This document shows positions 21,627 through 37,445 of a DNA stretch of 39,603 nucleotides, piece by piece; positions within the stretch are counted from its first letter, which is position 1; each line of letters starts with the position of its first letter. The translations under genes and the position numbers were made by a program. Below the pieces are notes generated by a model. That model was not told the DNA's origin, did no database searches, and worked only from the letters and a program-made list of their open reading frames with translations. The DNA is from Chthoniobacteraceae bacterium (GTDB lineage Bacteria; Verrucomicrobiota; Verrucomicrobiia; Chthoniobacterales; Chthoniobacteraceae), in NCBI GenBank assembly GCA_028714515.1, contig JAQTMF010000004.1:1-39603 (forward strand), written 5' to 3'.

Positions 21627-22067
21627 CGGGAGCGACATTCGGACGGGCCCCGCTCCCACTCGGGAGAACCCCGCTTTTTGGTAGAGCCGGATGGCCCGCG
21701 CGTTGGTGCTGTCGGTCAAGAGGGTGATTTGAACGGCTCCGATCGACTGCGCAAAACGCACGGTGTGTTGGAGCAAAGAGGTGGCGATCCCCTTTCCACG
21801 GAAGGCGCGGCGCACGATCAGGTCTTCCAGCAGGAGCGCCCGTCCGCCCTGGCTTGCGCTGAAGACGGTCAGCAGGTTTACCATGGCAACGAGGGTTCCG
21901 CCGCGGCGCTCCACGAAGATTCGGCCAAAGCCAAGGTTCCCCACGAGAAGCCGCAACCCGGCGCTTTGCTTGGCGCGGTCGGGGCGGAAGTCCGTTTCCT
22001 GGGCAAACAGTTCGCCCAGCATATCGCACAGTTGCGGGACATCTTCGAGGGTTGCTTCGGTGATCAC
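21612..22067 (-). CDS. GNAT family N-acetyltransferase (paralogue of the 37457-37903 protein)
   Basis: [22 protein letters not shown] acetyl-CoA binding motif; overlaps nifA stop (GTGA) so probably co-translated. Confidence 0.85.
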
Positions 22068-23674
22068 ATTTTGAACCGGTCGATTCCGACTCCATACCGT
22101 TTGACCCGCAGGCCCATGATCCGTTCACTCACGCCAAGCTGCCGGGCCGCCGCGGCCATGTTGCCATGCGTCTCCTTGAGCGCCGCGACGATCATCTCGT
22201 GCTCCAGCGCGGCTACAGCGGTTTCCAAGGTGCCCGACGAGGGCTTCTCCGAGGGATCGGCGGCTTGCAGCGTGGGCGGGAGATGGTGCGCCTGGATGGC
22301 GTCGCCCTGGCAGAGGAGGACGGCCCGCTCGATGCAATTTTGCAGTTCGCGCACGTTGCCCGGCCAGTGGTACATCATCATCAGATCAATGGCCGCCGTG
22401 GAGATGCGCAGGATCCCCTTGCTGTTTTCCTTGCTGTATTTTTCGACGAAGTAATCCGCCAGGAGCAGCATGTCCGACTTGCGTTCGCGCAGCGGCGGCA
22501 CGTAGATCGGGAAGACGTTGAGCCGATAGTAAAGATCGGCGCGGAAGGCGCCTTCTTCCATGAGCCGCTCCAAATCCCGGCTGGTGGCGGCGATGACGCG
22601 CACGTCGCAGCGCTGCGTGGTCTGGCTGCCGACCCGCTCAAACTCGTGCTCCTGGAGGACGCGCAGGAGTTTCACCTGCGTGGCCGGGGTCAGGTCGCCG
22701 ATTTCGTCCAGGAAGAGCGTGCCGCCGTCGGCCAGCTCGAACCGGCCTTTGCGCATCGCGATGGCTCCCGTGAACGCCCCCTTTTCGTGGCCAAAAAGTT
22801 CGCTTTCCACGATGGACTCCGGCAGCGCGGCGCAGTTGACCTTCACGAATGCCTTGGCGTGGCGCGGGCTGCCGCAGTGGAGGGCGTGGGCCACCAGTTC
22901 CTTGCCGACGCCGCTTTCGCCGCGGATCAGCACGGTCGTTTTGGAATTGGAAACGTGTTCGATATGATTGTAGACGCTCTGCATCGCGCTGGAGCTTCCC
23001 ACCATGTTGCCCGGCTTGTAGTGATTGTGGATCTGCTCCTGGAGGCGGTCGTTCTCATCCCGCAGCTCCGCGATGCGCTCCTCGGCGAGCTGCCGCAGGC
23101 TCACGGCTTGCGCGATGACGGACGCGATGATGGCGAGCATCCGCAGGTCGCGGTCGAAGTTCTCGCCCAGCGAACTGGCCCGCTCGACGCTGAGCGTGCC
23201 CAGGATGCGCTGGCCCGAACGGATCGGCACGCAAAGGAAAGAGAGCGCGGCAAAGGCGGCGGCATGCGGCTCCTGGCCTTTCGCAAAGCGCTCGTCGGCG
23301 GCGACGTTGGCGATGGTCAGCGGCTTGCCGGTATCGATCACCCATTGGAGCAATTCCCTGCCGCGCGGACCGCTCGACACGCCTTGTCCCGACACGGCCG
23401 TCTCGCCCACTTCCTCCACGGCGAGTTCCTGGGTGGCGCGGTTGACGATCGTCACGGCTCCCCGCCGCAGCGTCATCGAGCGGACCATCTGTTTGAGGGC
23501 CTGGCGCAGAATGTGCCGGAGATCGAGGCTTTCCTCCAGGGTTTGCGATATCTCGAAAAGCAGCGTCAGGTCGCGGATGACCCGGCAGGCGCCGACGTCC
23601 ATCGAGGCGAGCGAACCGTGAAGGAGAGAACAATCTGTTTGCGGGCAATCATCGAAAGTTTGGGACTTGAACAT
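22064..23674 (-). CDS. nifA: Sigma-54-dependent Nif/Vnf/Anf-type transcriptional activator
   Basis: GAF domain, AAA+ with [34 protein letters not shown], and C-terminal HTH; embedded in nif cluster. ATG (MFKSQTF) chosen over the GTG 2 codons upstream. Confidence 0.9.
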
Positions 23675-23793
23675 GGGCACGGTGCGGCGAGCAGGGGATC
23701 ACCGCTGCGTTGGCGAAATCTGGACAGATGGATCGGTTGACTTGGGCATATTTGACCAATGGCGAGCGCGCCCGGGGGCGCACCCGCAATCTG

Positions 23794-26423: not shown

Positions 26424-27704
26424 TCAGGCGCAGCCGGTGCCCGTGCCCCGGCAGCCGCCCTCGCCGCAACTGGTGAAGCGGCGTTTGAGGGAGGCCGGGA
26501 TCGGCTGGTCGGCAAAGACGGCCGCGAGCCCTTCTTCGATCAGGCCCTCCATTTCGATCACCTCGATGCCGCGGTCCTCCAGCGCGGCTTTGGGGCTGGG
26601 CCCGGCGGCGTTCACTAGGAAGGCGCGGCAATCGGCGAGCAGATCGGCCAGGCCGCTCCAGCGGGCAGAGGCCCCGCCCGGCGCGGGGGCCGTGCGGATC
26701 TCGACGAACTTGAACCCGGACGCGGTGGTCTCGTCTTGTTTGAAAATCAGGATGCTCGCGGCCTCGCCCAGGTGCATGTTGACGAGCGCCCCCTCGCGCG
26801 AGGCGGCCGCGACGTAGGGCCTTGCTTTGCCCGCGTTCAGCGCGCTGTGGGCGAACCGGTCGAGCGTCGCCATTTGCTCGCGCGACATCTTCTCGTCGAT
26901 GAACCCGACGGCGTCGGCCCGGCACCGCGCGCAGTGGATCATCTGCTCCACGTGCAGCCCGCATTGGAGGCGGACGCGGGCGGTCATCGTGGCGTCGGGC
27001 ACGGGGAGATCCTCAAATATCGCCCCGGCCACGGGCACGAGCGGCATGCAGTTCATGATGTCCACGCCCATCGGGCCGACCACCTTCGCGATCTCCGGGA
27101 TATGCTCGTCGTTGACGCCCGGCACGATGATCGCGTTGACCTTCACGACGATGCCGCGTTCCTTCAGCCTCCGCACGGCGTCAAGCTGGCGCTCGATCAA
27201 GATCCGGGCGGCTTCCTCGCCCCGGATGGGCGATTTGCCGTCGCGGATCCACGCGTAGATCTTCGCGCCGATCTTCGGATCGACCGCCGTGATGGTGATC
27301 GTGACATGGCTTACCTTCAGTTCCGCCAGTTCGTCGATGTACGGTCCGATGCCGAGGCCGTTGCTGGCGAGGCAGAGGATCATCTCCGGGAAACGCTCGC
27401 GCACGAGCCGGAGCGTCTCCATCGTTTCGACCGGGTTGGCGAACGGATCGCCCGGCCCGGCGATGCCCACGACCTTGATCTCCGGCCGTTGGGAGACGAC
27501 CTCCGCGAGGTACTCGGCCGCCTGCCGGGGCTTGAGAATATTGCTTGTCACGCCGGGGCGGCTCTCGTTCATGCAATCGAATTTCCGGTTGCAGAAGTTG
27601 CACTGGATATTACAGCGTGGGGCGATGGGCAGGTGGATGCGCCCGAATTTGTGGTGGGCGTCGCGGCTGAAACACGGGTGGCTGGAAAAGTCGATGTCGC
27701 TCAT
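26424..27704 (-). CDS. nifB: Nitrogenase cofactor biosynthesis protein NifB (radical SAM + C-terminal NifX-like domain)
   Basis: LPIAPRCNIQCNFCNRKFDCMNESRPGV radical SAM motif; NifX/NafY-like C-term ending CGEGGCRGTGTGCA; ATGA overlap with nifN. Confidence 0.96.
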   Translation of the reverse strand: MSDIDFSSHPCFSRDAHHKFGRIHLPIAPRCNIQCNFCNRKFDCMNESRPGVTSNILKPRQAAEYLAEVVSQRPEIKVVGIAGPGDPFANPVETMETLRLVRERFPEMILCLASNGLGIGPYIDELAELKVSHVTITITAVDPKIGAKIYAWIRDGKSPIRGEEAARILIERQLDAVRRLKERGIVVKVNAIIVPGVNDEHIPEIAKVVGPMGVDIMNCMPLVPVAGAIFEDLPVPDATMTARVRLQCGLHVEQMIHCARCRADAVGFIDEKMSREQMATLDRFAHSALNAGKARPYVAAASREGALVNMHLGEAASILIFKQDETTASGFKFVEIRTAPAPGGASARWSGLADLLADCRAFLVNAAGPSPKAALEDRGIEVIEMEGLIEEGLAAVFADQPIPASLKRRFTSCGEGGCRGTGTGCA

Positions 27705-29089
27705 AGGTAGCTATAGCCGATGGGTGAGGAGGTTTGTTTGACGTCCAGGAGGGCGTTGACGATGGTGTCGTAGAGGGCCTGCGCGCCCCGGTAGCCGAGG
27801 TGCAGGATGCGCTGGCCGCCGATCCGGTCGTGAATGGGGAAGCCCACGCGGATGAGCGGCACGCCGAGCTTGCGGGCGAGGGCGTATCCCTTGCTGTTGC
27901 CGATGATGAAGTCGGGCTTGAGGCTTTCCGCCAGCTCCGCGATCTGGGCGAAGTCGATGCCGTCGTGGATGCGGGTCCGTTCGTCCAGCATGGGGAGGAC
28001 CTCGCGCAGGTTCCGCTCCAGGCGGCCGCTCTTTCCGCCCGAGGCGCAGAGAACGGGGAGGATGCCCGTCTCGGCGAGGAATGCCGCGAGGCCGGTCACG
28101 AGATCCTCCTCGCCGTAGACGATGGCCCGCTTTTCGAAGACGTATTTGTGACCGTCGATGAGCGCGTCCACGAGCCGCCCCCGCTCCTTGTTGTATTTTG
28201 CGGGCGTCGGCAGGCCGGAAGCGGCTTCGAGCGCTTCGAACAAAGCGTCCGTTTCGCGCAGGCCGATGGGCAGCCCGAGCCGCCGGTTGGGAATGTTGAA
28301 GCGCTCTTCCAGAAACCGGCCCGCGCTGGGGAAATCGGCGAGCGTGCGGCCGAATTCCAGCGAGCATTGCGCGCACCCGGCCGCATGGATCGCCTCGATC
28401 GGCGTGCCGCCGCTTTGCAGTTTTTCGTATTCGCTCCAGGTCTCGCCGTCCATCGATTCGGAGTAATCCGGCAAAAGGGTGTAGGGGAGGCCGAAGTCAT
28501 CGGCGATCTCCTTCAAATGCCGCAGATCGGCGGCGGACACCATGCCGGGGAAGAGGTTGACCCGCCGCGTCCGGTCGCCCGGGAGGGCCAGAGCGGCCAC
28601 GGCGGCGCGGACGGCGGCGTGGAAGCCGTCGATATGCGTGCCGCTGTAGCTGGGCGTGGAGACCTTGATGAGATGCGGGTGTCCCTCGTGCCACGACTCT
28701 TTGAGGTAGTCGTGGAAGATCCGGTCCATGTCCTCGCCAATCGTCTCGCTGAGGCAGGTGGTGGCGACGGCGACCATTTTGGGTTGGTACTGCCTGATCA
28801 CATTGGAAACTCCAGCCTTGAAGTTGGACGCCCCGCCAAACACGGCCGACTCCTCGGAGAAATTGGACGCGGCGATGTCGATGGGCTCGCGGAAGTGGCT
28901 GATCAAGTAGCGCCGGATGTAGGTGCTGCAACCCTGCGAGCCGTGGAGGAAGGGGATGGTTCCCTCGATGCCCCGGAAGACCAGGCACGCGCCGAGAGGC
29001 GTGCAGAGCTTGCAGGCGTTGCGGGTCGCGGTGCAGTGGTTGAAGCGAGGCTCGTCCAGTTCGTTGTCTATCGCGCTGGTGACGTTCAT
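27701..29089 (-). CDS. nifN: Nitrogenase FeMo-cofactor scaffold protein NifN
   Basis: NACKLCTPLGACLVFRGIEGTIPFLHGSQGCSTYIRRYLISHFREPIDIAASNFSEESAVFGG; ATGA overlap with nifE. Confidence 0.95.
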   Translation of the reverse strand: MNVTSAIDNELDEPRFNHCTATRNACKLCTPLGACLVFRGIEGTIPFLHGSQGCSTYIRRYLISHFREPIDIAASNFSEESAVFGGASNFKAGVSNVIRQYQPKMVAVATTCLSETIGEDMDRIFHDYLKESWHEGHPHLIKVSTPSYSGTHIDGFHAAVRAAVAALALPGDRTRRVNLFPGMVSAADLRHLKEIADDFGLPYTLLPDYSESMDGETWSEYEKLQSGGTPIEAIHAAGCAQCSLEFGRTLADFPSAGRFLEERFNIPNRRLGLPIGLRETDALFEALEAASGLPTPAKYNKERGRLVDALIDGHKYVFEKRAIVYGEEDLVTGLAAFLAETGILPVLCASGGKSGRLERNLREVLPMLDERTRIHDGIDFAQIAELAESLKPDFIIGNSKGYALARKLGVPLIRVGFPIHDRIGGQRILHLGYRGAQALYDTIVNALLDVKQTSSPIGYSYL

Positions 29090-30474
29090 GGTTGGGCTCC
29101 TTTCAGCTTGGCGGCCCGGCGGGGAGCGAACTGCCAGACCGGGCTCATGACGGAGGAATAGACCTCGCGGGCGAAATGGAGCATGCCGATGAACCCGGCC
29201 AGCGGCTCCTTGCGCTCGTGATTGTGATCGCAGAAGCCGATCCCCATTTTGTAGGCGATGGGCCGCTCCTTCACGCCGCCGATGAAAAGATCCACATCCT
29301 TTTGCAGGCAGAACTTGGCGAGTTCGAGCGGGTTGGAGTCGTCCACGATGATCGTGCCGGGATCGCACATTTCCTGGAGCTGCTTGTAATCCTCCGCGCC
29401 GCCGGTCTGCGAGCCGACCACCGCCGTCTCCATGCCGAGCATCTTGAGCGCGCGAACCAGCGAGAACGCCTTGAACGCGCCGCCCACGTAGATGGCCGCC
29501 TTCTTCCCCTGGAGCTTGGCGCGGTAGGCGCGCAGTTGCGGCCAGATCAGCGCCACCTCGTCGCGCACGAGCGCCTGCGCCCGTTCCATGATCGTGGGAT
29601 CGTCGGCAAAAAACTTGGCGGTTTCATAAAGCGCGGCGGACATGTCCTCGATGCCGAAATACGAGACGCGCTTCACGGGAATGCCGTAATCGCGTTCCAT
29701 CACCTTGGCCAGGTGCATCATGGAGCCGGAGCATTGCACGAGATTGAGCTTCGCGCCGTGCGCACGGCGGATGTCCTCCACCCGGGCGTCGCCGGTGATG
29801 CAGCTCACCACGTTGACGCCGATGCGTTGGTAGTAATCGCGGATGATCCAGGTTTCGCCCGCGAGGTTGAAGTCGCCCAGAATGTTGATGCTGTGCGGCG
29901 GGATGCCCTCCGTGGGCGCGGTGCCCACCAGCTTGTAAACCGCTTCGCAGGCGGCCCGGTAGCCGTCCTTCTTGGTTCCCCTGAACCCTTCGGAGTTGAC
30001 CGGCAGGACCGGGATGCCTTTTTCCGCCGCGACCCGTTTGCAGATGGCCGCCACATCGTCGCCGATGATTCCGACGATGCATGTGGAGTAGACGAACGCG
30101 GCGTTGGGTTTGTAGAGATCGATCAACTCCGTCAGCGCGTGGTAGAGTTTCTTCTCGCCGCCGTAGATCACATCCATCTCCTGGAGATCGGTGGAGAAGC
30201 TGTTGCGGTGAATCTGCGGACCGCTGGAAAGCGCGCCCCGGATGTCCCAGGTGTAGGCTGCGCAGCCGATGGGGCCATGGACGAGATGCAGGGCGTCCGC
30301 GATGGGATAGAGGACGACACGCGAGCCGCAAAAGACGCACGCCCTTTGGCTCACCGAACCGGCGGCGCTGTGCTTGTCGCAGGCGATCCCGGCTCCCTTG
30401 CCCGCCTCCACGATGGAGGCCTCGCGGACGGGCAGGATGCCGATCTCTGGTTGGCTTGGCGGCATGGGTTGCAT
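29086..30474 (-). CDS. nifE: Nitrogenase FeMo-cofactor scaffold protein NifE
   Basis: RACVFCGSRVVLYPIADALHLVHGPIGCAAYTWDIRG, YSTCIVGIIGDD; upstream of nifN. Exact start uncertain. Confidence 0.95.
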   Translation of the reverse strand: MQPMPPSQPEIGILPVREASIVEAGKGAGIACDKHSAAGSVSQRACVFCGSRVVLYPIADALHLVHGPIGCAAYTWDIRGALSSGPQIHRNSFSTDLQEMDVIYGGEKKLYHALTELIDLYKPNAAFVYSTCIVGIIGDDVAAICKRVAAEKGIPVLPVNSEGFRGTKKDGYRAACEAVYKLVGTAPTEGIPPHSINILGDFNLAGETWIIRDYYQRIGVNVVSCITGDARVEDIRRAHGAKLNLVQCSGSMMHLAKVMERDYGIPVKRVSYFGIEDMSAALYETAKFFADDPTIMERAQALVRDEVALIWPQLRAYRAKLQGKKAAIYVGGAFKAFSLVRALKMLGMETAVVGSQTGGAEDYKQLQEMCDPGTIIVDDSNPLELAKFCLQKDVDLFIGGVKERPIAYKMGIGFCDHNHERKEPLAGFIGMLHFAREVYSSVMSPVWQFAPRRAAKLKGAQP

Positions 30475-30491
30475 GACGCCCGCCCCCTATT

Positions 30492-30506
30492 GCAAGCCGT
30501 GTGCCA
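30492..30506 (-). promoter_or_regulatory. Sigma-54 -24/-12 promoter for nifE: TGGCACA-CGGC-TTGC
   Basis: Reverse complement of gcaagccgtgtgcca; 14/15 compatible with TGGCACG-N4-TTGC; correct strand directly upstream of nifE. Confidence 0.85.
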
Positions 30507-30616: not shown

Positions 30617-30632
30617 GCTACGCATGAGTAGG
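30617..30632. promoter_or_regulatory. Putative activator site (nifE proximal dyad): gCTAC-GCATGA-GTAGG
   Basis: CTAC-N6-GTAG dyad about 118 bp upstream of the nifE -24 element; matches the pair upstream of nifH. Confidence 0.65.
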
Positions 30633-30648: not shown

Positions 30649-30664
30649 CCTACATTTCGGTAGC
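30649..30664. promoter_or_regulatory. Putative activator site (nifE distal dyad): CCTAC-ATTTCG-GTAGc
   Basis: Shares 16 identical bp (CTACCGAAATGTAGGA) with the distal nifH dyad; 32 bp from the proximal site. Confidence 0.7.
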
Positions 30665-32245
30665 TTTCCGGCCGCAGCACTTCTTTCGCCGGGCAAAGGC
30701 GAGCGCGCCCATCCCGGCGATCAGCAGGGCCCACGCGCCGGGTTCGGGCAACACGGCGAGCGTCAATTCGCTGCCTTCGGTGATGCCGTTGAGGAAAGCG
30801 GCGTTGGTGACATACGTTGCCCCCAGCGAAAGGAGCGCCTTGCTCAAGGGCGTGTATTTCTTGCCATTGAATGAGATCGTTCCATTCAGTTCGTCTTCCA
30901 CGTAGAATTCGAACTGGGCATTTTTGACGGCGGTTTCGAGCGCGGTTGCCGACAGACCGGTGAAAAAACCGCCCAAATACGTTGTGCCCGCGGCGGCGCT
31001 CTTCAAGTAGATCCTGATCGTGTTGTCGGTTGTGAGGTCGCCTGAAAACGGTGTGGCGCCAGTCAAGAGGAGAAGATCGTTCCCGCTGGCCGTGGGGGCG
31101 CTGTAAATAGGGCTGGAATCGGGCAACGTGAACTCGAAAGCGAAATCGATGCCGGTGCTGATCTCCACGGAATCGGCCGTCAAGATGCCGGGGCTGTTGC
31201 CGGGAGAGATCAAGCCCGAGCCGCTGATCGCGCCGGTCGTCAAGGTGCCTTCCAGCGTGCCGTTCACGGCCACCGTTCCACGGACCCTGCCGCTGCCCGC
31301 GAGAGTCGCCCCAATGTGCACGCTGACGGGGCTCGCCGCCGACAACGAGCCGTTCACCTCAAGCCTGCCCGCCGAAACATTCGCCGCGCCGGTGAAGTTG
31401 CTGGATCCCGTAAGAACGGTTGTGCCCGAGCCGAGCTGGTTGACGGTGAGCGTGCCGGAAAGTTGCGGCGCAAAGGTGTAGCCGCCGGTGTGGTTGAAGT
31501 TCACCGTGGCGGCCCCCGCTCCGCCGGTAACGCTGGCGGCACGAAGCGTCCCGGCCGATGCGCCTGTGCCGAGGTTCAGGATGCCAGTCGAGGCGTCTTG
31601 CTCGGCAAGATCGAGATTCCCGGCTCCGCCTTGAACGGAGACGACGCCGTCCTTTTCAAGATTCAGGGTTCCATTCCCGGAATGCCCGACGCAAAGGGAT
31701 TGGGAACTCCAGGTGCCGCCGGAGAGGGTGGCTGTGCCGATGGAATCGCCGTTGCTCCCAATATAACCTGTATTGCTGAGAACCGTTCCTCCCTCGACGT
31801 TCAAAGTTCCCGTGCCGGAATTGCCGACGATCAGCCAGGAGGAATGGCTCCAGGTGCCGCTGGAGACGGTGGCGCTACCGGATGAACCCTGGCCATACCC
31901 AAGGTAGCTATTGGAGTTGGCGATGCTGCCGCCGCTGATGATCAGCGTCCCCGAATTGGAATTGCCGAGGTAAAGATCGCGCGCGGCCCCGGAAACGGCA
32001 GTGGGCACGAGGACCGAGCCTCCGTTGTCGATCGTGGCGTCGGTTGTGGATGCGGGCGCGGCATTGCCGGACCAGTGGCTATTGTCATTCCAGGTGCCCG
32101 AAGAAGGCAGCCACGATTTTGAAGTCGCGCTGGCGGGTGACACCAAAAGGATCATACATCCCGCCGCGAGCAATACGCTTCCCCCCGCGCGCCGTTTTAA
32201 GGCCCGCCGGATCGGCCGTTTGGGCTGCCAGAAGTTGTGTCCCAT
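30650..32245 (-). CDS. PEP-CTERM sorting-domain protein with autotransporter-associated/beta-strand repeats
   Basis: Signal peptide; repeats such as GTATLSGGTWSSQSLCVGHSGNGTLNLEK; C-terminal LPEPGAWALLIAGMGALAFARRKK. Confidence 0.85.
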   Translation of the reverse strand: MGHNFWQPKRPIRRALKRRAGGSVLLAAGCMILLVSPASATSKSWLPSSGTWNDNSHWSGNAAPASTTDATIDNGGSVLVPTAVSGAARDLYLGNSNSGTLIISGGSIANSNSYLGYGQGSSGSATVSSGTWSHSSWLIVGNSGTGTLNVEGGTVLSNTGYIGSNGDSIGTATLSGGTWSSQSLCVGHSGNGTLNLEKDGVVSVQGGAGNLDLAEQDASTGILNLGTGASAGTLRAASVTGGAGAATVNFNHTGGYTFAPQLSGTLTVNQLGSGTTVLTGSSNFTGAANVSAGRLEVNGSLSAASPVSVHIGATLAGSGRVRGTVAVNGTLEGTLTTGAISGSGLISPGNSPGILTADSVEISTGIDFAFEFTLPDSSPIYSAPTASGNDLLLLTGATPFSGDLTTDNTIRIYLKSAAAGTTYLGGFFTGLSATALETAVKNAQFEFYVEDELNGTISFNGKKYTPLSKALLSLGATYVTNAAFLNGITEGSELTLAVLPEPGAWALLIAGMGALAFARRKKCCGRKATEM

Positions 32246-32356
32246 GAATAGTTCATGTTCTCCGGCGGTCCCTGCCAAAAAATAAACGAGTTCGCGAAAT
32301 TACGTATCTAAATTTGGGGCCATGTTTTTCGGGGCGGGAGCGGGCCCCGTCAAGAC

Positions 32357-32434: not shown

Positions 32435-33811
32435 TTACTGGATTAGCTCCACCTGTTCCTCGGGAGCCTCGCGGTCTTTCTTGTCAAAGAAGGCGTCGAT
32501 GATCTTGTCGACCAAGCGGAGCGCCCCCTGGTATCCCACGGTCGGGAAGACGCGGTGGCTCATCCGGTCGAGGATCGGGAAGCCGAACCGGACGAAGGGG
32601 ATATTCCCCTCGGCCCGGGCGATATACTTGCCGTGCGTGTTGCCGATCAGCAGATCGACGCCCTGCTGCTTGATCCATTGGTGCAGCTCAAAGAGATCGG
32701 CGTTCTGCTTGATCTTCGCATCGGGAACCTGCTCCTTCAGGATCTCGCCCACGCGGGTCTCGAAGTGGTTGCCGGAGCTGCCGGTGATGACGTAGACCGG
32801 CTTCATATCCAGCTCCACGAGGAAGCGGGTGAGCGCGATGACGTGATCGGGATCGCCGAACACCGCGACACGCTTGCCGAAGAGGTATTGCCCCATGTCG
32901 CTGATCACATCGAGCAACCGCCCGCGCTCCTGGACGATGGACGCGGGGACCTCCACGGCGGCGTAGTTGCGCAGGGCGTCGATGTATTCATCCGTGGCGG
33001 TGACGCCGATGGGAAGTTCGAGCAGCGCGGTGGGCACGCTGCATTTGTCTTCCAGAGCGATGGCCGCCGGATGCGAGGCGAAGGTTCCCAGGGCCAGCGT
33101 GGCAATCGAGTCGCCCGCGCTGGCGATCTGCTCCACCGTCGCGCCTCCCTTGGGATACATTTCGTAAATGCCGGTCTGCGGCGTATCGAGCACGTCGGAC
33201 GTGTCGGGGAACAGGACGATGTTCACGTTCAGTTCGCCCGCGAGCCGCTTCATTTCCCGCATATCGGACGGATCGACAAAGCCGGGGATGACGTTGATCT
33301 GGTCTTTGGTCTCGCCGGTTTTCTCGGAGAGATAGTTGACCATCGCCTTCGTCATGTTGGCAAATCCCGTGATGTGGGAGCCGACGAAGCTCGGCGTGTT
33401 GGCGTGGATGACGCGGCACCCGGCGGGCACTTTGCCTTCCTCCGCCGCCTTTTTGACGATGGTGGGAATGTCGTCACCGATGACCTCCGAAAGGCAGGTG
33501 GTGTGGACCGCCACGATCTCGGGCTTGTAGATGGTGAAGATGTTTTCCAGCGCCTGGTTGAGGTTGGCCGAGCCGCCGAACACCGAGGAGCCTTCCGTGA
33601 ACGAGCTGGTGGTGGCGATGACGGGGTCTTTGAAGTGGCGGGTAAGCGTGCTGCGATGGTAAGCGCAGCACCCCTGCGAGCCGTGGCTGTGGGGCATGCA
33701 CCCGTGGATGCCCAGCGACGCATACATCGCGCCGATGGGTTGGCAGGTCTTGGCCGGGTTGATGCGCAGCGCGCTGCGCTCTTTGATTTCGGCTGTGGTT
33801 CCGTTGAGCAT
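32435..33811 (-). CDS. nifK: Nitrogenase MoFe protein beta subunit
   Basis: NPAKTCQPIGAMYASLGIHGCMPHSHGSQGCCAYHRSTLTRHFKDPV, TTCLSEVIGDD; start MLNGTTAEIKERSAL (ORF track extends artefactually upstream into nifD). Confidence 0.97.
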   Translation of the reverse strand: MLNGTTAEIKERSALRINPAKTCQPIGAMYASLGIHGCMPHSHGSQGCCAYHRSTLTRHFKDPVIATTSSFTEGSSVFGGSANLNQALENIFTIYKPEIVAVHTTCLSEVIGDDIPTIVKKAAEEGKVPAGCRVIHANTPSFVGSHITGFANMTKAMVNYLSEKTGETKDQINVIPGFVDPSDMREMKRLAGELNVNIVLFPDTSDVLDTPQTGIYEMYPKGGATVEQIASAGDSIATLALGTFASHPAAIALEDKCSVPTALLELPIGVTATDEYIDALRNYAAVEVPASIVQERGRLLDVISDMGQYLFGKRVAVFGDPDHVIALTRFLVELDMKPVYVITGSSGNHFETRVGEILKEQVPDAKIKQNADLFELHQWIKQQGVDLLIGNTHGKYIARAEGNIPFVRFGFPILDRMSHRVFPTVGYQGALRLVDKIIDAFFDKKDREAPEEQVELIQ

Positions 33812-33840
33812 AGGATTCGAGTGGGTGAACGGAGTTGGAA

Positions 33841-35568
33841 TTATTCGGGAATGGCTTCGCCGCCGGCTTCCGGCTTGCGGACAGGAGCGGGAGCCGCCGC
33901 CTTGGGTTTCGGTTCCTTCGGGTTGTAGATCGGCGTGGCCTGGAGCTGGGGCTCCTTCATCCACGAGGGGACGACGTATTTCCAGACCTTCGTGTGGAGC
34001 ATCCGGTCGATTTCCTGGTAGAAGTTCGCCGCGCCCTCAAAGGCCGTGTAGGGGCCGCCGTAGTCGTAGCTGTGGAGCTGTTTGCAGGGGATGCCCATCT
34101 TCTCGATGATGAACTTGTCCTTGATGCCGGAGCAGATGATGTCCGGGTGGCGCAGTTCGATGAGCTTCTCGATCTCGTGATGACTAATGTCGTCGATGAC
34201 CAGCGCGTTCTTTTTCATTTCGGACATCATGCCGGTGTAGTCCTTGAAGCTGAATCCGCCTTCCTCCAGCGCCTTCGTCTGTTCGGGCGTCTTGCGCGGG
34301 TTGTAGCGGACGGGGTCCTGCTCCACCGTGATCTCCTCGATGTTCCGGCTGTCGGCATCGACCTTGATGGTGGGCAGCACGGCGCGGCCTTCGTAGTCGT
34401 CGCGATGGGCGAACTCGTACCCGGCGGCGATCGTTTCCATGCCGATATCGGCGAAGAGGTGCTGGTAGGAGTGAGCCCGCGAACCGCCCACGAAGAGCGC
34501 CGCTTTCTTGCCCTTGCAACGGGCCGTCACGGCATCGCGGACGGGCTTGAGCTTGGCCATTCCCTCGGCGATGACTTCCTCCACGCGGTCGGTCAGCTTC
34601 TTGCTTTCAAAGAAGGCGGCGATCTTGCGCAGCGACTTGGCGGTGGCCTCGGCGCCCACGAAGTTCACCTTGATCCACGGGATGCCGTATTTCTTTTCCA
34701 TCATCTCCGCCATGTAGTTGATGGAGCGGTGGCACATGACGGTGTTGAGATCGACCGTGTGCGCCTTGCACACCTGGTCGTAGGTCACGTCGCCCGAGAG
34801 CGTGGCCGTGACGTGGATGCCGCATTTGCGCAGCACCTCGTCGATGGCCCAGGCGTCGCCGCCGATGTTGTATTCGCCGAGCAGGTTGATGTTGAACTCC
34901 GCCTTGTCCCCCTCGTCGAGGCGGCCGATCATGTGCTTAAAGACGCCGTTGTTGGCGATGTGGTGGCCGGCGGATTGGCTGACGCCCTTGTAACCCTCGC
35001 AGCTAAAGGCGAAGACGTTGATGCCTAGTTCCTCCTTCATCTCGCGGGCGACGGCGTGGACGTCGTCGCCGATCAGGCCGACCGGGCACGTGGAGTAGAT
35101 CGAGATCGCCTTGGGGTGGAAGATATCGAAGGCCTCCCTGATGGCCTGCCGGAGCTTCTTTTCCCCGCCAAAGATGATCTGCTCCTCCATCATGTCGGTG
35201 GACATGGCGTATTGGAGATAGTTGGTGTCGCCTGCGTGGCGCGGGCGCACAAGGTTGCGCCGCGTGAGCCACGAATAGTAGCCGCAGCCGATGGGGCCGT
35301 GGGTGATGTGGAGAATGTCGGAGATCGGCCCGATGACCACGCCGCGGCACCCGGCATAGGTGCAGCCGCGTTGCGTCATGATGCCCGGGATCGTCCGAGT
35401 GTTGGCCCCGATCTGCGGGATCGCCTCGGGATCGTTGACGAGCAATTGCTTGGCGCGCTTGCGGGCGGTCTTGGCCGGGTAGGCCTTGAGCATCTTGTCA
35501 ATGGTCGCCTTGGCTTCCGTGGCCGCGGCTTCAGGCGCGATGGGAAGAGGTGTTATTTCTGGTGCCAT
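33841..35568 (-). CDS. nifD: Nitrogenase MoFe protein alpha subunit (with C. pasteurianum-type insertion)
   Basis: GCTYAGCRGVVIGPISDILHITHGPIGCGYYSW, YSTCPVGLIGDD, MCHRSINYM, QLHSYDYGGPY. Confidence 0.97.
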   Translation of the reverse strand: MAPEITPLPIAPEAAATEAKATIDKMLKAYPAKTARKRAKQLLVNDPEAIPQIGANTRTIPGIMTQRGCTYAGCRGVVIGPISDILHITHGPIGCGYYSWLTRRNLVRPRHAGDTNYLQYAMSTDMMEEQIIFGGEKKLRQAIREAFDIFHPKAISIYSTCPVGLIGDDVHAVAREMKEELGINVFAFSCEGYKGVSQSAGHHIANNGVFKHMIGRLDEGDKAEFNINLLGEYNIGGDAWAIDEVLRKCGIHVTATLSGDVTYDQVCKAHTVDLNTVMCHRSINYMAEMMEKKYGIPWIKVNFVGAEATAKSLRKIAAFFESKKLTDRVEEVIAEGMAKLKPVRDAVTARCKGKKAALFVGGSRAHSYQHLFADIGMETIAAGYEFAHRDDYEGRAVLPTIKVDADSRNIEEITVEQDPVRYNPRKTPEQTKALEEGGFSFKDYTGMMSEMKKNALVIDDISHHEIEKLIELRHPDIICSGIKDKFIIEKMGIPCKQLHSYDYGGPYTAFEGAANFYQEIDRMLHTKVWKYVVPSWMKEPQLQATPIYNPKEPKPKAAAPAPVRKPEAGGEAIPE

Positions 35569-36356: not shown

Positions 36357-37343
<987 letters not shown>

Positions 37344-37395
37344 CTAGTTATCCGGGAAAATAGTTGTTCTCCACTGCGGCGTCCGCCCATCCGCG

Positions 37396-37411
37396 CCTAC
37401 CCGCTGGTAGG
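37396..37411. promoter_or_regulatory. Putative activator site (nifH proximal dyad): CCTAC-CCGCTG-GTAGG
   Basis: Perfect dyad (GCCTAC/GTAGGC, 37395-37412), about 130 bp upstream of the nifH -24 element. Confidence 0.7.
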
Positions 37412-37423
37412 CCTATTCTCTTT

Positions 37424-37445
37424 GGTCCTACCGAAATGTAGGACC
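37424..37445. promoter_or_regulatory. Putative activator site (nifH distal dyad): GGTCCTAC-CGAAAT-GTAGGACC
   Basis: Perfect 8-bp arms, N6 centre, 31 bp centre-to-centre from the proximal dyad; near-copy upstream of nifE. Confidence 0.75.

Follow-up and report, generated by a model that had tools for sequence, protein, structure and literature searches.

Paired CTAC-N6-GTAG dyads as probable sigma-54 enhancers for a VnfA/AnfA-type NifA at Mo-nitrogenase promoters

The window analyzed here, a stretch of DNA of 39,603 nt, carries a set of nif genes together with the gene for a NifA-type activator (Table 1). NifD and NifK both scored over the Mo-type cut-offs and far under the Vnf and Anf cut-offs, identifying the enzyme as a Mo-type nitrogenase; nifHDK and nifE are in this respect unlike the V- and Fe-nitrogenase genes controlled by VnfA and AnfA. 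Matches of NifD to several nitrogenase alpha models were split in two, and beyond approximately residue 395 the protein has extra residues that could possibly be a lineage insertion. An ORF for a PEP-CTERM type surface protein (30650-32278) lies between nifK and nifE.

Table 1. Genes, sigma-54 promoters and candidate enhancer dyads of the nif region in the window.
Feature	Position	Strand	Basis or sequence
nifH, first gene of nifHDK	36357..37181	minus	NCBIfam TIGR01287 above cut-off
nifD	33841..35568	minus	TIGR01282 above cut-off
nifK (ORF; actual start possibly downstream)	32435..33964	minus	TIGR01286 above cut-off
nifE	29086..30474	minus	TIGR01283 above cut-off
nifN-like gene (ORF; actual start likely downstream)	27701..29368	minus	NifEN, NifK and NifN models match, all below cut-off
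nifB	26424..27704	minus	TIGR01290 above cut-off
NifA-type activator	22064..23680	minus	GAF, AAA+, Fis-type HTH (Pfam domains)
nifH enhancer (candidate), distal dyad	37424..37445	minus	GGTCCTAC-N6-GTAGGACC; core CTAC-N6-GTAG 37428-37441
nifH enhancer (candidate), proximal dyad	37395..37412	minus	GCCTAC-N6-GTAGGC; core 37397-37410
sigma-54 promoter of nifHDK	37259..37273	minus	TGGCACGCGCCTTGC; perfect TGGCAC-N5-TTGC
nifE enhancer (candidate), distal dyad	30650..30663	minus	CTACCGAAATGTAG in nifE direction
nifE enhancer (candidate), proximal dyad	30618..30631	minus	dyad scan; kept in L024
sigma-54 promoter of nifE(NB)	30492..30506	minus	TGGCACACGGCTTGC; perfect TGGCAC-N5-TTGC

Two dyads lie upstream of nifH with their centers 31 bp apart, the distal one reading CTACATTTCGGTAG in the direction of nifH, and the centers fall ~131 and ~162 bp upstream of the GG in the nifHDK promoter. 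A first-pass annotation had reported these two dyads, their arms and their separation, and re-reading of the sequence reproduced them exactly; the sigma-54 promoter that it had placed downstream of them is a perfect match to TGGCAC-N5-TTGC. It had also seen no classical NifA site (TGT-N10-ACA) between the promoter and the stop codon of the GNAT gene, where we likewise found none, and none occurred near the nifE promoter either. A second pair of dyads, absent from that annotation, lies upstream of nifE. Its centers are 32 bp apart and ~120 and ~152 bp upstream of a promoter of the same sequence class, and its distal dyad is the reverse of the distal nifH dyad. The distal nifE dyad contains the stop codon of the PEP-CTERM ORF. 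Only ~17 bp separate this promoter from the nifE start codon (30474-30506), a spacing that is the same in the relative L024 described below, and the nifE mRNA would be almost leaderless if this start is right.

The four strict CTAC-N6-GTAG dyads in the window compare with 0.04 expected from shuffles. Perfect TGGCAC-N5-TTGC promoters number just two in the window, each of them downstream of one pair. A search of the full assembly (3,237,753 bp) for the strict pair (spacer 10-30) and for a relaxed TAC-N6-GTA pair (spacer 16-21) returned only the nifH and nifE promoters, while a reversed-pattern control returned 0 matches. TGT-N10-ACA occurred 3 times in the window (2.38 expected) and at none of the nif promoters, unlike in a classical NifA system. 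At both promoters the dyads sit ~120-163 bp upstream of the -24/-12 element, within the 80-200 bp expected of a sigma-54 enhancer, and here as among relatives in the class the centers are 29-32 or 41 bp apart, a pairing at helical phase as for sigma-54 enhancers.

To gauge conservation we compared the region with a close relative, L024 (Spartobacteria UBA695), whose NifA is 86% identical to the local protein. The distal nifH dyad was unchanged over 20 bp in a setting of differing flanks, and the other three dyads had kept their arms while their centers had diverged. Both sigma-54 promoters were conserved as well, within DNA that could otherwise be aligned only poorly. Since dyad arms and spacing persist amid diverged DNA, they are evidently under selection.

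We then surveyed the bacterial class, comprising 286 genomes with our own included, 33 of which carry nifH. The strict pair was present in 12 of the 286; matches in two genomes (G112 and G217) were tandem repeats and were set aside as artefacts, and in all of the other 10 the pair lay immediately before nifH, its proximal dyad being followed by TGGCAC at a distance of 100-150 bp. Enrichment before the sigma-54 promoters of orthologous nif loci had been set beforehand as a test of the enhancer proposal, and it was thus found in 10/10 non-repeat genomes. The association of pair and nifH was strong even with the two tandem-repeat genomes counted against it (Fisher p = 6e-9). Outside one family, f18, a strict dyad preceded nifH in 19 of 21 upstream regions (shuffle mean 0.02), and 28 sites had an inner spacer of 6, as against none with 4, 5, 7 or 8. 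Ten upstream regions had a single strict dyad, and its best partner, matching 6-7 of 8 letters, was 29-31 bp away in every one of them. Near-match pairs at 20 of the 21 comparable nifH promoters were separated by 29-31 or 41 bp, and 20 of the 21 non-f18 promoters had pair scores of 14-16 out of 16, compared with 9-10 in 12 f18 genomes; a score of 14 was reached by 2 of 990 shuffles. The letters CTAC/GTAG were invariant, and the outer arms were lost elsewhere. A second nifH copy (L055, in genome G230) has a perfect sigma-54 promoter and only a weak pair; this genome encodes two TAC-type NifA proteins, one of them on the same contig as that nifH.

Family f18, which we take to be probably Methylacidiphilaceae, served as an internal control. 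TGT-N10-ACA preceded nifH in all 12 of its genomes (shuffle mean 0.44), and TAC-N6-GTA dyads before nifH were found in 0 of the 12. The two NifA proteins recovered from f18 have the classical helix GWVQAKAARMLHLTPRQLGYALRKYGI, and in all the remaining NifA proteins recovered from this class the helix is T/S-E-R-x-x-G-L-R or closely similar to it. Site type therefore co-varies with the type of NifA helix-turn-helix (HTH) within the class, the one bacterial class in which both site types were sampled unambiguously.

The activator encoded in the window falls with the latter group. In an HTH alignment its recognition helix reads S-E-R-I-M-G-L-R-V and is not of the classical T-P-R-Q-x-G-Y type, which is the type seen in a solved NifA chain (9qq6_C). 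The match of the protein to the nifA model TIGR01817 ends before the HTH and reaches 504.3 bits against a cut-off of 528.85. In a tree built with the HTH columns removed, all 34 TAC-linked activators, a label assigned per genome that for some rows denotes co-occurrence, lay on one side of a branch with 98/99 support, and four TGT-linked activators lay on the other, the classical rows including long branches. Plasmid searches for NifA returned mostly rhizobial NifA. VnfA and AnfA were represented in the tree by one VnfA-like protein, encoded beside vnf-type DK and EN genes at the single vnf-like locus that a search for AnfD brought up among 399 genomes from a different phylum; this protein nested on the TAC side. 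Its vnf locus carries CTACATATTCGTAC and GTACCGTTCGGTAC 30 bp apart, of the forms CTAC-N6-GTAC and GTAC-N6-GTAC. On the best explanation, the local NifA would be a member of a VnfA/AnfA-like branch and not of the classical TGT-N10-ACA branch, and yet serve a Mo-nitrogenase.

Among characterized sites, those of Rhodobacter capsulatus AnfA and Azotobacter VnfA come nearest to the window dyads. In R. capsulatus, mutation and EMSA established that AnfA binds a TAC-N6-GTA dyad at two places before anfH (PMC7294313). This system shares with the window the core dyad, the 6-bp spacer, two sites upstream of -24/-12 and a GAF-AAA+-HTH activator, but it drives an Fe-only nitrogenase in an alphaproteobacterium, whereas the window sites precede the Mo-nitrogenase genes nifHDK and nifENB, and in the window dyads the letters just outside the core are always C and G. 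ChIP-seq of A. vinelandii VnfA1 yielded GT(T/A)C-N6-GTAC, usually two per promoter (PMC9542535), and the first-pass annotation had correctly given GTAC-N6-GTAC as the VnfA consensus (PMC9542535, PMC7294313). The TAC-N6-GTA core is present in all four window sites, making them VnfA/AnfA-type sites, and the regular pairing is likewise shared with the A. vinelandii VnfA sites; a VnfA-like protein falls in the same activator branch. The outer letters are G..C in VnfA sites, which serve V-nitrogenase and related targets, and C..G in the window. AnfA TAC-N6-GTA is the closer published consensus. Classical NifA systems have in common with the window an upstream enhancer, sigma-54 nif promoters and, as we infer for the window, a NifA-family bEBP; their TGT-N10-ACA sites, as in the f18 relatives, have other half-sites and another spacer. 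In one study, a candidate bEBP motif is predicted before nifHDK in five Desulfovibrionales, and the associated regulator, DVUA0143, is likened to AnfA/VnfA in its N-terminal domain (PMC4641369). That motif, the letters of which are given in a figure only, resembles the window sites in its place before Mo-nitrogenase operons. A search of the open literature returned no report of CTAC-N6-GTAG.

We also looked for the pair followed by TGGCAC in 264 Gb of sequence, allowing a pair spacer of 14-28. This global scan gave 34 loci (~14 expected by equal-base chance), 23 of which were linked to nitrogen or molybdenum genes; among these 23 the pair spacer was 15-18 in 20 and 27 in 3. Sixteen loci were at nif genes, from Verrucomicrobiota, Lentisphaerae, Desulfobacterales and other 'Deltaproteobacteria', and Bacteroidota, and the pair precedes nifH in Desulfobacterota, Lentisphaerae and Bacteroidota. 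Seven further loci were at other nitrogen- or molybdenum-related genes. Pairs preceded glnA (L025, L043), type III glutamine synthetase (GSIII; L019, L027) and the ammonium transporter gene amt (L040, via L199; L046). The genomes behind these glutamine synthetase (GS) and amt matches contained no nifH, and they encode a NifA relative whose HTH is of the same style, either adjoining the site or elsewhere in the genome. The paired dyads before such genes suggest that NifA-like proteins may act there as general nitrogen regulators. A deltaproteobacterial MAG (L032, 4898-5050) has a pair and TGGCAC before a putative molybdate ABC transporter, a weaker case because the transporter is ~0.8 kb downstream. 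In Acanthopleuribacter, a further pair precedes a gene that, to judge by reading its sequence, appears to encode an assimilatory nitrite reductase. Judged from these genomes, the paired site is no peculiarity of this organism but a general feature of its class that is also found in other phyla.

Desulfobacterota presented a mixed picture. A strict dyad was found in 3 of 25 nifH upstream regions and a relaxed dyad in 10 of 25, some at unlikely positions, and because these genomes carry several NifA paralogues each, with classical, AnfA-like and TAC-type helices, the phylum is not decisive as a second test. Desulfovibrio vulgaris DP4 has CTACAAAAATGTAG before nifH, yet its plasmid NifA has a classical-like HTH. 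A relative of D. vulgaris (G344) likewise has a dyad before nifH and a classical-like HTH in the nearest NifA; it also encodes a second NifA-like paralogue with an AnfA-like helix, so that any assignment of the site to one NifA is tentative in these two genomes.

We consider it very probable that the dyads are sigma-54 enhancers bound by the VnfA/AnfA-type NifA of the window and that they control its Mo-nitrogenase. A single NifA dimer would sit on each dyad, contacting it with the C-terminal HTH, and NifA on the paired dyads would activate the sigma-54 promoters by DNA looping. The proposal of the first-pass annotation, a non-canonical NifA enhancer resembling the VnfA site, is supported by the enrichment at nif promoters and by a local NifA that lacks the classical recognition helix, with binding predicted from sequence. 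Enhancers of this kind are a known class of bEBP element, here with a candidate code that is well conserved and is not the textbook one.

Binding by another nitrogen or metal regulator, either a bEBP such as NtrC or a ModE-like repressor, is improbable in our judgment, even though NifA is tied to the site by co-occurrence alone, some Desulfobacterota combine the dyad with a classical-HTH NifA, and the motif also precedes glnA, GSIII and amt elsewhere. Against this possibility, site type follows NifA HTH type within the class, the GS and amt cases come with a NifA relative of the same HTH style, and the motif agrees with published AnfA and VnfA sites; a repressor in particular would be poorly matched to a position upstream of -24, which suits an activator. 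It is far less probable still that the dyads are terminators or RNA hairpins ending the GNAT and PEP-CTERM genes. The distal nifH dyad does have 8-bp arms and a stable RNA fold and comes soon after the GNAT stop, and the distal nifE dyad shares bases with a stop codon, but the transcribed (minus) strand has no U-run after the dyads, shuffled sequences fold as well as the nifE pair does (z = 0.18), and invariant CTAC/GTAG letters with loss of the outer arms are the opposite of compensatory change. A terminator would also leave unexplained the pairing at 29-32 bp and the fixed place before TGGCAC, and we rejected this reading for want of a T-run on the transcribed strand and of structural conservation. 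Chance, or shared ancestry without function, is hardly credible, short as the dyads are, given 4 of them in the window against 0.04 expected, the conserved arms amid diverged flanks and the recurrence in several phyla.

Regulation of Mo-nitrogenase is taught and annotated through TGT-N10-ACA. If the NifA enhancer reading holds, control of nitrogen fixation outside Proteobacteria may often use a DNA code other than the textbook one. Should a VnfA/AnfA-type code rule nif in many non-proteobacterial diazotrophs, regulon prediction would need a different motif there, and transfer of nif clusters between hosts would need a matching NifA. The contrast between f18 and the rest of its class amounts to a natural swap that makes the HTH-to-site code directly testable. 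More tentatively, and with slightly less than even confidence, we propose that the NifA family has two deep branches with different DNA codes, TGT-N10-ACA and TAC-N6-GTA, the latter found in Verrucomicrobiota, Planctomycetota, Acidobacteriota, Spirochaetota, Bacteroidota and part of Desulfobacterota. In diazotrophs the TAC branch would run Mo-nitrogenase; in genomes that lack nifH it would run glutamine synthetase or ammonium transport. VnfA and AnfA may have descended from this branch, a general nitrogen regulator having then been recruited to control nitrogenase, and the sites before glnA, GSIII and amt would point to such an origin of the nitrogenase activators.

The N-terminus of the local NifA contains a C-x4-C motif (CPQTDC) and a Cys-Arg directly before the GAF domain. 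Cys-Arg is frequent in verrucomicrobial nif activators and occurs in the VnfA-like protein as well, and the GS and amt regulators appear to be without such N-terminal cysteines. These cysteines may form an oxygen or metal sensor.
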